Source: Oerskovia jenensis
Lineage (GTDB): Bacteria; Actinomycetota; Actinomycetes; Actinomycetales; Cellulomonadaceae
Assembly: GCF_016907235.1 (NCBI RefSeq)
Contig: NZ_JAFBBO010000001.1
Coordinates: 496,001 to 560,000, forward strand
Direction: 5' to 3'
Length of the DNA stretch: 64,000 nt
In this document: positions 16,420 through 54,696 of the stretch, piece by piece
Numbering within the stretch: the first letter of the stretch is position 1
How the letters are laid out: the number at the start of each line of letters is the position of its first letter
Notes under the pieces: generated by a model
What the model was told of the DNA's origin: nothing
The model's database searches: none
The model's input: the letters and a program-made list of their open reading frames with translations, nothing else
Made by a program: the position numbers and the translations under genes

Positions 16420-16504
16420 GTCCGGGTGGCGGAATGGCAGACGCGCTAGCTTGAGGTGCTAGTGCCCTTTATCGGGCGTGGGGGTTCAAGTCCCCCTCCG
16501 GACA
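16420..16504 (+). tRNA. tRNA-Leu(GAG), copy 1
   Basis: An 85-nt class II tRNA. The acceptor stem pairs GTCCGGG with the 3' TCCGGAC plus discriminator A73 (16504). The D-arm is GGCGGAATGGCAGACGC, and the anticodon stem CTAGC/GCTAG encloses TTGAGGT, giving anticodon GAG. A long variable arm (TGCCCTTTATCGGGCG) follows, with T-loop GTTCAAG. CCA is not encoded. A TATGTT -10-like hexamer lies at 16370-16375. The sequence is identical to copy 2, 177 nt downstream. Confidence 0.97.
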
Positions 16505-16524
16505 CTCGTTGAGACAGCGAACCG

Positions 16525-16596: not shown

Positions 16597-16681
16597 GTCC
16601 GGGTGGCGGAATGGCAGACGCGCTAGCTTGAGGTGCTAGTGCCCTTTATCGGGCGTGGGGGTTCAAGTCCCCCTCCGGACA
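16597..16681 (+). tRNA. tRNA-Leu(GAG), copy 2
   Basis: Identical over all 85 nt to the copy at 16420, with the same anticodon GAG, long variable arm and discriminator A73. The duplication includes the downstream spacer and terminator with a few substitutions and also a short upstream block (GACACC before the gene), so it is a 177-nt tandem repeat rather than an independent locus. It reads CUC and CUU codons. Confidence 0.97.
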
Positions 16682-16701
16682 CTCGTTGAGACAGCGAACG
16701 G

Positions 16702-51608: not shown

Positions 51609-52946
51609 CTAGGGCGCGAGCCGGTGCAGGTCGCGCGGGAACAGCGTGACCTCGCGGACGTTCGCCGCGCCCGTCAGGCGCGCGGTCCACCGTTCGAGCC
51701 CGATCGCGAATCCCCCGTGGGGCGGCATCCCGTGCTCGAACGCCTCGAGGTACGTCGCGTACGCGGCCGGGTCCTCGCCACGGGCCGTGATCGCCGCGAC
51801 GTAGTCCGCGTACCGGTGCAGGCGTTGACCACCCGTGACGAGCTCGACGCCTCGGAAGAGCAGGTCGAAGCTGTTGCTCCACCGCGCGTCGCCCGGCTGC
51901 GGGTGCGTGTAGAACGGGCGCTTGGCCATCGGGTAGCCCTCGACCGCGAGGAGGTCGCTGCCGTGCTCCGCGAGCGCCCACCGTCCCAGCGCGCGCTCGT
52001 GCTCGGGCGCCAGGTCGGGCTCGTCGGCGGAGGCCCCGACGAGGGCCAGCGCCTCGGCGAAGTGGATCACGGGGATCTCGTCGGGGACGACCGGCACGGC
52101 GAAGCCCTGCGTCGCGACGGCGGCCCCGGCGTGCTCGTGGACCGCGGCTGCCATGCCGGCCAGGACGTCGCGCAGGACTCCGAGCACGTCGCGGTGGTCG
52201 CGGACGAAACCGAGCTCGACGTCGAGCGAGACGTACTCGGCGAGGTGCCGCACGGTGTCGTGCGGCTCGGCCCGGAAGACCGGCCCCACCTCGTACACGC
52301 GCTCGAAGACCCCGACGAGCTGCTGCTTGAAGAACTGCGGGCTCTGCGCCAGGAAGGCCGGGCGTCCGAAGTAGTCGAGCGCGAACACCTCGGCCCCCGA
52401 CTCGGTCGCCGACCCGACGATCTTGGGCGACTGCACCTCGGTGAACCCCCGGGCGTCGAGGGCCTCGCGGAACCCGCGCAAGGACGCGGCCGCTACCTCC
52501 CAGCGTGCGCGCTGCGCGGGGTGCCGCCAGGCGACCGCGGCATGGTCGAGCATCGTGGAGAGCCCCACGTCGAGCGAGGGACGCCACAGCTCGACGGGCG
52601 GGGTCACGGCAGGGTCGGTGAGGAGCACGACGGCCGGCGAGGTCACCTCGACCCCGCCCGGAGCCTGCACGTTCGCCGTCGTCAGGCCCGTGACCTCGAC
52701 CACGGTCTCCTCGGGCGGCACGACCTGCCCGTCGCCCGCGCGCACGACGACCTGGGCCGACCCCGACCGGTCGCGCAGCACGAGGAAGGTGACGGTCGCG
52801 AGGGCGCGACGCCGGTGCACCCAGCCACGGAGCGTGACGGGCGTGCCGGGTGGGAGGGCGGGCAGGTCGGCGGCGAGGGTCCGGTGCGCCGCGGACGGGG
52901 CTGCCGGGGTCGGCGTCGGAGGGACGGGCGGGGTCGGTGGTCTCAT
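51609..52946 (-). CDS. aspS: Archaeal-type aspartyl-tRNA synthetase
   Basis: A 445-residue class IIb synthetase. The OB-fold anticodon-binding domain (GWVHRRRALATVTFLVLRDRSG) is followed by the catalytic core with motif 2 PVFRAEPHDTVRHLAEYVSLD and motif 3 GGFAIGLERW. Length and the lack of the bacterial GAD insertion domain place it with archaeal or nondiscriminating AspRS, not the ~590-residue bacterial enzyme. It may charge tRNA-Asn with Asp for amidation, or be a stress-induced second copy. ATG 52946 has GGAGG 4 nt upstream; that ribosome site is sequestered by the T-box leader. Confidence 0.9.
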   Translation of the reverse strand: MRPPTPPVPPTPTPAAPSAAHRTLAADLPALPPGTPVTLRGWVHRRRALATVTFLVLRDRSGSAQVVVRAGDGQVVPPEETVVEVTGLTTANVQAPGGVEVTSPAVVLLTDPAVTPPVELWRPSLDVGLSTMLDHAAVAWRHPAQRARWEVAAASLRGFREALDARGFTEVQSPKIVGSATESGAEVFALDYFGRPAFLAQSPQFFKQQLVGVFERVYEVGPVFRAEPHDTVRHLAEYVSLDVELGFVRDHRDVLGVLRDVLAGMAAAVHEHAGAAVATQGFAVPVVPDEIPVIHFAEALALVGASADEPDLAPEHERALGRWALAEHGSDLLAVEGYPMAKRPFYTHPQPGDARWSNSFDLLFRGVELVTGGQRLHRYADYVAAITARGEDPAAYATYLEAFEHGMPPHGGFAIGLERWTARLTGAANVREVTLFPRDLHRLAP

Positions 52947-52950
52947 GGTT

Positions 52951-53102
52951 CCTCCAGCAGGCGAAGGCCCTGGAGGAGCGGGCGGGGGCTAGGTCGCGGT
53001 GCCACCACTCCTTCGCCGGGAGGTCCCGGCCTCTCGTCGGTCCGCCGGACGCGCGGGGGTCGCGTGCCCGGGCCACGAGGTCCGGGCCGAGGGTCGTCAC
53101 GC
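52951..53102 (-). promoter_or_regulatory. Translational T-box riboswitch upstream of aspS
   Basis: The T-box element AAGGAGTGGTGGCACCGCG (within 52992-53013, minus strand) contains UGGC, whose C can pair with a G73 discriminator as in tRNA-Asp. AGGAG (53008-53012) can pair with CUCCU (52974-52978); alternatively CCUCCAG (52970-52976) pairs with CUGGAGG (52951-52957), masking the Shine-Dalgarno. The shared strand makes these exclusive. A short Stem-I-like hairpin (GCGUG/CACGC, 53098-53102 and 53062-53066) has an inner loop with GAC (53080-53082), a possible Asp specifier. Confidence 0.75.
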
Positions 53103-53165
53103 CTCACGTCCACCGGTTCCGACGATACCCACGGACGGCGAAGGCGTCGCGGGGATTTCCGGAGC

Positions 53166-53236
53166 CGAGCGCTGAGTGCGTGGTTCGGCGGCGACTCGCC
53201 GGGCGTGTCGCCGCCGAACCATGCACTCAGCGCTCG
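53166..53236 (-). repeat. 30-bp-stem palindrome after the symporter gene
   Basis: Arms 53166-53195 and 53207-53236 pair over 30 bp with a single G-U, around an 11-nt loop. The 3' arm overlaps the last codons of the symporter gene (stop at 53227). It is far longer than a terminator needs, so it may be a dispersed palindromic element acting as terminator or mRNA stabiliser. Confidence 0.75.
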
Positions 53237-54696
53237 GGAGCGCGCTCGGGCACGTGCAGCCGCCGCAGGAAACGGTCCGTGCGGGGCTGCGGCCCGCGCC
53301 GGTCGCGCAGGGACACGACGACGGTCGTGGCGGTCGCGAGCGGGATCGTCCAGGCCGCGGGCTGGGCCAGGAGGCTGCGTGCGAGCCCGTCGCCGGGCCC
53401 GAGCGCCGAGGTGACGAGGAGCGCCGCGGCGCACAGCGCGCTGCCGACGACCATGCCCGCGATCGCCCCGCGCGCGGTCAGGCGCCGCCACCACACGCCC
53501 AGCAGGATCGTCGGGGACAGCGCGGAAGCCGCGAACACGAACACGGTCCCGACGCTCGTCACGAGCCCCTGCGGGATGGTCACGAGCGCGAACGCGAGGG
53601 GCACGATCGTGCACGCGACCGCGGACCAGCGGAACGAGCGGACCGTGCCGCCGAACAGGTCCTGACTCACGACGCCCGCGAGCGAGACCACGAGCCCTGA
53701 GGACGTCCCGAGGAACGCCGCGAACGCCCCGGCGATCACGAGCGCCGAGAGCAGCTCGCCGCCCAGGCCCGGCACGAGCCGCGACGGCAGCACGAGCGCC
53801 ACGGTGTCCGCGACGCCGGGCTCGGCGAGGTCGGGGGCGACGACGCGGGCGATCAGTCCCATGGTGCTCGAGACCATGTAGAAGACGCTGATCATGCCGA
53901 TCACCACGACCGTGGTCCACCGGGCCGAGACGCCGTCGGGGCTCGTGTAGAAGCGCACGAGGACGTGCGGCAGGCCGATCGTGCCGAGCAGCAGTGCGAG
54001 CAGCAGCGAGGCCGTCGTGTAGGTGTCGTACGCGCGCGGCCCGGCCTCGGGCGGGAAGACCTGCGCCGGGTCGAGCGTCAGGTCCTGCCCGCCGAGCACG
54101 ACGAGCAGGAAGACCACGGGGACCGCGAGCGCCGTGAGCTTGACCCAGAACTGGAACGCCTGGACGAACGTGACCGAGCGCATGCCGCCCGCGGCGACCA
54201 CGGCGCTCACGACCGCGGCCACCCCGACCGACCCGACCCATGGCGGCACGGGGGCCACGGTCGTGATGACGAGCGCCGCGCCGTGGAGCTGCGGCACGAC
54301 GTACAACCACCCGATGACGAGCACCAGGACGCTCGTGACGCGCCGGGCCGCGAGCGAGTCGAGCCGCGCCTGGACGAAGTCGGGGATCGTGTAGGCCCCG
54401 CTGCGCCGCAGGGGCCCGGCCACGAACAGCAGCACGAGCAGGTAGCCCGCGGCGTACCCGACGGGGAACCAGAATGCCTCTGCCCCCGAGAGCAGGACGA
54501 GCCCCGACAGTCCCAGGAACGTCCCGGCCGACAGGTACTCGCCGCTGATGGCCGACGCGTTCCACACGGGCTGCACCGTCCGGGACGCGACGAAGAAGTC
54601 GCTCGTGGTCCGCGAGATCCGCAGCCCGTAGAAGCCGATGAGCCCGGTCGCGAGCAGCAGCAGACCGACCGCGACGAGCGGCAGGGCCGAGCTCAC
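53227..54696 (-). CDS. Sodium:solute symporter (SSS family, ActP-like)
   Basis: A 489-residue permease with about 13 helices. Family signatures are YGLRISRTTSDFFVASRTVQPVWNASAISGEYLSAGTFLGLSG at the start and GTSSGLVVSLAGVVSQDL in the middle; the latter resembles the Na+-site helix of acetate/pyruvate-type members. GTG 54696 overlaps the stop of the small membrane gene by 4 nt. With the upstream LytS/LytTR pair it is the likely regulated output for acetate, pyruvate or another small carboxylate; the exact substrate is inferred. Confidence 0.9.
   Translation of the reverse strand: MSSALPLVAVGLLLLATGLIGFYGLRISRTTSDFFVASRTVQPVWNASAISGEYLSAGTFLGLSGLVLLSGAEAFWFPVGYAAGYLLVLLFVAGPLRRSGAYTIPDFVQARLDSLAARRVTSVLVLVIGWLYVVPQLHGAALVITTVAPVPPWVGSVGVAAVVSAVVAAGGMRSVTFVQAFQFWVKLTALAVPVVFLLVVLGGQDLTLDPAQVFPPEAGPRAYDTYTTASLLLALLLGTIGLPHVLVRFYTSPDGVSARWTTVVVIGMISVFYMVSSTMGLIARVVAPDLAEPGVADTVALVLPSRLVPGLGGELLSALVIAGAFAAFLGTSSGLVVSLAGVVSQDLFGGTVRSFRWSAVACTIVPLAFALVTIPQGLVTSVGTVFVFAASALSPTILLGVWWRRLTARGAIAGMVVGSALCAAALLVTSALGPGDGLARSLLAQPAAWTIPLATATTVVVSLRDRRGPQPRTDRFLRRLHVPERAPER

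Follow-up and report, generated by a model that had tools for sequence, protein, structure and literature searches.

The aspS2 gene lies on the minus strand at positions 51609-52946 of the window, the whole stretch of 64 000 nucleotides of Oerskovia jenensis DNA that was analysed. Its product (445 aa) was classified as an archaeal-type aspartate--tRNA(Asn) ligase using NF003483 (512 bits, cut-off 353); against TIGR00458 it scored 331 bits, under the cut-off of 368.4. By sequence, the nearest solved structure is T. thermophilus AspRS-2 (1n9w). The His and the Pro that we take to be marks of non-discriminating AspRS were both present in the 1n9w alignment of the product. AspRS2 is only 36% identical to the AspRS1 of the same genome (residues 5-264). 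One AspRS1 each was found in 18/18 aspS2 genomes tested, which suggests that aspS2 encodes a reserve enzyme. That it serves to withstand an AspRS inhibitor is speculative. Genome G487 contains two aspS2 genes (L171 and L175), each with its own T-box.

The leader of aspS2 covers about 52947-53115 (minus strand). Read 5' to 3' on the minus strand from 53127 to 52944, the sequence contains the −10-like hexamer TATCGT (53122-53127), a hairpin with a UGAC loop, a GC-rich conserved block, Stem III and the T-box core GGAGUGGUGGCACCGCG. These are followed by the 3' partner CGCCCGCUCC, then by UCCUCCAG, the SD-bearing CUGGAGGA and the AUG of aspS2 (from 52946). Stem I is ultrashort (53089-53105): GAGG, at 53105-53102, pairs with CCUC around the 9-nt loop CGUGACGAC, which contains the Asp specifier GAC (53096-53098). 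The long Stem I with AGUA/GAA and distal loops, present in 35 aligned LONG relatives, is absent in the window. A Stem II-like block, CCGCGCGUCCGGCGGACCGACGAGAGGCC (53028-53056), was delimited on the alignment of 45 ultrashort leaders; it holds a CGC/GCG hairpin in which C-G is changed to U-A in 3/45 leaders. Inspection of the leader for the Stem II S-turn and IIA/B pseudoknot of class II T-boxes led to this conserved block. Stem III (GCCGG/CCGGC) is at 53015-53030. The antisequestrator (52975-53011) is composed of helix A1 (GGAGUGG, 53011-53005, with CCGCUCC, 52981-52975), the T-box bulge UGGCACC (52998-53004), complementary to G73-CCA, and helix A2 (GCG/CGC). Two other helices use parts of the same region: S1 (52967-52989), in which GCCC of the A2 loop (52989-52986) pairs with GGGC (52970-52967), located 3' of A1, and the sequestrator S2 (52950-52977), in which UCCUCCAG (52977-52970) pairs with CUGGAGGA (52957-52950). 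S2 places CUCCAG on CUGGAG and covers the SD GGAGG (52955-52951).

The first-pass annotation had reported a T-box-like element with UGGC in this minus-strand leader, and all the motifs that it named were found by direct reading of the sequence. Its right edge at 53102 cuts Stem I. The two competing pairings that it assigned to the CUCCUCCAG strand both exist and are both kept in relatives. Its T-box call stood, but it had missed the specifier and the ultrashort form of Stem I, as well as the existence of other architectures and of examples on aspS1 and serS. A long-range helix, UCGUCGG/CCGACGA, predicted in the single-sequence MFE structure, was discarded since by eye it is lost in relatives.

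TANNNT was present 26-29 nt before UGAC in 42/53 US (ultrashort) and INT leaders (mononucleotide shuffles: mean 5.1, maximum 13). Because of this fixed distance, the RNA probably starts just before Stem I. A generic sigma-70 scan gave no promoter at the window leader. A long inverted repeat at 53163-53235, which separates the aspS2 promoter from the symporter gene upstream, is perhaps a terminator.

Distribution, target genes and forms of Stem I

Relatives were collected by two protein searches that yielded 109 loci (L001 and L008-L115; L002-L007 are other synthetase places). These listed loci are the nearest relatives (one search confirmed 566, of which the best 80 were kept) and some organisms are represented twice. 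A motif scan, independent of the covariance model, detected the core upstream of the gene in 100/109 listed loci, corresponding to 81 distinct cores. The same scan gave no core motif upstream in the other nine listed loci (L078, L029-L035 and L027). L029-L035 are a family 36-38% identical. L027 contains the 3' end of a gene that begins, together with its T-box, in L144; this aspS2 (G007:C895) is apparently split, with the T-box and the N-terminal part from 201 and the C-terminal part from 3714. L078 is the aspS2 of Nocardioides litoris, which has no T-box motif though its relatives carry one.

A covariance model of the core (58 sequences, the window's own included) gave one strong match in the 4.45-Mb genome (67.1 bits, E 1.1e-16), the next reaching 18 bits (E 0.24). 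A chance motif was ruled out by this single strong match, by the presence of the core in 100 of the 109 listed loci and by the A1 pairing. Archaeal-type AspRS is encoded in 29/394 genomes of the class (protein search). The core model, built partly from the class genomes searched, gave 30 matches in as many class genomes, 22 of which belong by position to the 29 aspS2 genomes: 21/21 close ones plus G182, and 0/7 distant ones. The other eight were two aspS1, one serS and five weak matches (25.7-35 bits). Weak matches L150-L153, L154 and L176 were judged by eye not to be T-boxes, and match L174 was without the motif. At the order level, 24/396 genomes had a match at E<=1e-4; at the phylum level, 6/396 had one, three of them strong and all already known, and three weak. 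The Rfam T-box model, proposed as a check in the first-pass annotation, misses the window element: RF00230 gave no match in its own genome even at E<=10. In the class genomes it gave 0/388 over the cut-off and matched 216 at E<=0.01, ileS T-boxes included.

Among 24 core-model loci examined, 16 were located before AspRS2 genes, six before AspRS1 genes and one before a SerRS gene, and one was without the motif. The AspRS1 loci (L131, L133, L155, L157, L158 and L161) have a bacterial-type aspS1; the L131 product was identified with NF001750 (650 bits, cut-off 443). AspRS2 is absent from these six genomes, where its best matches, 33-36% identical, fall at the aspS1 places. In this group, the helix of the UGAC hairpin varies between GGUGG/CCACC and GGCGG/CCGCC. 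At some aspS1 loci, the SD seems by eye to be masked by a separate local hairpin. The SerRS locus, L145 (also L199; genome G225), was found by the core alone and precedes a serine--tRNA ligase gene (TIGR00414, 363 bits, cut-off 302). It reads GAAUCC in place of GAAGAC. The genome encodes two SerRS, and the product of this locus is the second copy, with 38% identity to the first. This serS case with UCC is a natural control. With the Rfam T-box model, 30 loci were obtained among the matches listed for the class genomes and 28 were parsed: three aspS2/serS and 25 ileS-like, as judged from the beginning of the reading frame (two were printed in another frame).

The leaders of related genes have three forms, with a full canonical, a minimal or an ultrashort Stem I (the window), and these forms track the gene tree. 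Streptomycete-like relatives retain the full canonical Stem I. In some of these LONG loci (L092, L107 and others), GAUCA...UGAUC flanks the start codon by eye and is perhaps an alternative initiation mask. The tree was built from 105 proteins by a quick method, with several long branches and architecture labels assigned manually. In it, the 48 ultrashort rows all fell to the same side of a branch with support 77. Four changes each were required for LONG and INT, and for all groups together seven versus 47 when shuffled. Because leaders with a full Stem I and identical motifs turn up at three separate places, we infer that LONG would be the original form, from which shorter ones arose on more than one occasion; transfer is an alternative.

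Conserved helices and the predicted closed form of the leader

The ultrashort alignment (45 leaders of listed loci) was prepared after removal of duplicates (L039, L060, L064, L076), a near-copy (L067) and two leaders with no recognisable SD or start (L071, L075). The LONG alignment contained 35 leaders; L023, L082, L101 and L111 were omitted, L021 was placed in neither set and eight INT leaders stayed outside the alignments. In the ultrashort set, 99.8% of the cells of the ON structure were paired, with changes on both sides at seven pairs. Covariation was 0.181 versus 0.095 for shuffled alignments (0/500), and slid versions of the structure paired in 46-56%. Most of the changes sit in Stem I (both sides changed at 3/4 pairs, 98.9% of cells paired) and Stem III (3/5 pairs, 100% of cells paired). 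Compensatory changes were also present in the antisequestrator helices in the alignments of ultrashort and LONG leaders. An alignment of aspS leaders had been suggested in the first-pass annotation as a way to find covariance in Stem I or the antisequestrator, and both have it. A1, whose 3' strand was taken to be whichever 7-mer in range paired best, has 7/7 pairs in 78 of the 81 distinct listed cores and six pairs in the other three; A2 has three to seven pairs. The bulge reads UGGCACC in 66 of these cores, UGGCACA in 11 and UGGUACC in four.

RNAalifold, applied to the 35 LONG leaders, returned A1, A2 and a long Stem I, with both sides changed at 29/51 pairs. For the 45 ultrashort leaders it returned Stem I and Stem III along with S2, while the T-box strand folded into a register-shifted hairpin that replaces A1/A2. 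This consensus is an OFF state. The drawn OFF structure (S1 and S2) had 99.6% of its cells paired in the ultrashort set. S2 was found at p<=0.05 in 52/81 distinct strand/target pairs of the listed loci (US/INT 46/47, LONG 6/34), a test that is inflated because SD sites by nature resemble anti-SD strands. The failing US/INT pair was L086; no SD was found for L071 and L075. The extensions of S2 past the SD co-vary (CAG/CUG, CUG/CAG and CGG/CCG). S1, scored by its best helix, reached 4 bp or more in 79 of the 81 distinct listed cores (shuffled: mean 33.7, maximum 44). When its partners were swapped, kinship being ignored, the native score was 12.6, versus a mean of 11.7 and a maximum of 12.5 in 300 swaps. 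Since S1 and S2 are nearly invariant in the ultrashort set, with a double change in one sequence each, their support comes from the comparison between groups.

From this comparison and from the geometry, S1 and S2 together may form an H-type pseudoknot that masks the SD in the OFF state. There is a little less than an even chance that S1 is no OFF-state helix: GCCC could mask the T-box through the register-shifted GGC/GCC pairing, S1 could be part of the ON state, or it could just reflect strands that are rich in C and G. The RNAalifold structure of the ultrashort leaders, in which the GGC of the bulge pairs with the GCC of the A2 loop (kept in 44-45/45), speaks for the first of these. As this hairpin shares the GCC strand, S1 is one of two candidates in ultrashort leaders. 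Moreover, S1 survives without S2 in serS L199 and in most LONG leaders, and the fall of its score on partner swapping is small. However, many LONG loops (e.g. UUCCCUU) are without GCC and yet retain CCCUU/AAGGG, and with A1/A2 formed, the geometry indicates that S1 would need 3-4 nt to span 10-12 bp.

Fold energies were computed for A1/A2 and S2. The best fold of the 86-nt 3' part was the OFF structure (−38.6 kcal/mol, versus −32.3 with A1/A2 forced), with pair probabilities of 0.73 for S2 and 0.27 for A1. As isolated hairpins, A1/A2 had −11.2, the 7-bp S2 −10.8 and the 8-bp S2 −12.7 kcal/mol. Means over 47 US/INT leaders were −11.6 for A1/A2 and −13.4 kcal/mol for S2. The RNA alone is thus predicted to be OFF and the ON state would need the help of tRNA, as expected of a switch for uncharged tRNA.

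The tRNA sensed and the level of control

A pattern search, which deviant copies would escape, found one tRNA-Asp (GUC) and one tRNA-Asn (GUU) gene in the genome. The discriminator is G73 in both. The first-pass annotation was right to match the C of UGGC with G73 of tRNA-Asp/Asn, but this match is of no use for choosing between the two. UGGC fits them alike and GAC fits tRNA-Asp only; the specifier alone indicates Asp because both tRNAs have G73. Sorting of 100 leaders of the listed loci was done by UGAC or GAAGAC in 98 cases, the other two reading AGAC and CGAC. The invariance of the specifier in the ultrashort and LONG alignments is therefore partly by construction. UGAC in a small hairpin was present in 22/22 aspS loci that the core model by itself had picked up, some of whose organisms overlap the earlier set. 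The specifier matches the gene: GAC before aspS in these 22 loci and UCC before serS.

The anatomy of the leader, the conservation of its pairs, the match of its codon and discriminator with tRNA-Asp and its association with the gene are those of a T-box. We consider it very probable that the aspS2 leader is a T-box riboswitch of class II (translational) and that it senses whether tRNA-Asp is charged, AspRS2 being probably a reserve enzyme. A translational T-box on an archaeal-type aspS, as originally proposed, is the best reading and is supported by the pairings kept in relatives. Binding of the tRNA and the direction of the switch would be as follows. GAC in the Stem I loop would read the GUC anticodon of tRNA-Asp. 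With uncharged tRNA-Asp, the 3' GCCA would pair with UGGC and stabilise the antisequestrator A1/A2, so that the CUCC strand would be held and GGAGG left open to the ribosome (ON). With charged tRNA-Asp, A1/A2 would fail and CUCCAG would pair with CUGGAG over the SD (OFF). The output would be a second, archaeal-type AspRS, probably for times of low tRNA-Asp charging. We infer its reserve role because the controlled copies are second copies.

SD-masking hairpins can also trigger Rho-dependent ending of transcription, and the leader could control transcription in this way instead of translation. This is improbable, given that a terminator search found no terminator-like site in 52900-53300 and that a competing helix lies over the SD in all but one of the distinct US/INT pairs tested. 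Sensing of tRNA-Asn, or of both tRNAs, is less likely still and was set aside: the enzyme is annotated as an aspartate--tRNA(Asn) ligase, predicted to charge tRNA-Asn, and the G discriminator is common to both tRNAs, but the loop is GAC and never AAC in the 22 aspS loci detected through the core alone, and the serS example carries UCC.

Relation to known T-boxes

Sherwood is said to have reported actinobacterial ileS translational T-boxes in PNAS in 2015. Such T-boxes were described for ileS by Seliverstov in 2005 (PMC1262725) and in a review (PMC7583486), and one doubtful case is given for a his operon (PMC3896937). Wels 2008 counted 32 T-boxes across 12 actinobacterial genomes, Symbiobacterium accounting for 18 (PMC2494555), and TBDB applied a class II model of its own to actinobacterial reference genomes (PMC7778990). 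No description of an aspS or serS translational T-box was found in the portions of the literature searched; the TBDB tables may hold such sequences. As in the ileS T-boxes, the window element combines an SD-masking expression platform with an antisequestrator bearing a UGGN bulge, and a short Stem I with the specifier in a hairpin loop (PMC3896937, citing Vitreschak 2008). It differs from them by the tRNA (tRNA-Asp instead of tRNA-Ile), by its target genes (aspS2, aspS1 and serS) and by UGGC, where UGGU, as UGGUACC, was read in 25/25 parsed ileS-like loci among the matches listed. Its relatives also include the full canonical Stem I of streptomycete-like organisms. S1 of at least 4 bp, present in nearly all the listed cores here, was found in 6/25 ileS T-boxes, whose A2 loops are mostly just 3-4 nt.

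The aspS T-boxes of Firmicutes (PMC2494555; hisS-aspS operon, PMC7927825) likewise place an operon with an AspRS gene under tRNA-dependent control. They act on transcription, whereas the window element is predicted to mask the SD. B. subtilis tyrZ is likewise reported to be a second synthetase copy under T-box control; the amino acid is different, and here the two enzymes share just the limited identity given above.

A wider reading, which we regard as doubtful, is that actinomycetes have, in addition to the ileS T-boxes, a second T-box lineage specific for tRNA-Asp that was retuned to tRNA-Ser on at least one occasion. Starvation or inhibition of the housekeeping enzyme would make it switch on reserve synthetases (aspS2, the second serS); in some aspS2-less genomes it is located on aspS1. 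Its OFF state would be the H-type pseudoknot of S1 and S2 masking the SD, and it would include a series from full to ultrashort Stem I on one orthologous gene. An Asp form on a reserve synthetase would extend the targets of actinobacterial translational T-boxes beyond ileS. With long and ultrashort Stem I on orthologous genes, the cost of Stem I loss for tRNA binding is directly testable, and the serS case with its altered specifier would be a natural retuning experiment.

Matches to miRNA families corresponded to an inverted repeat and were rejected as family members. Elsewhere in the window, two tandem tRNA-Leu (GAG) genes with equal Rfam scores are located at 16420-16505 and 16597-16682.
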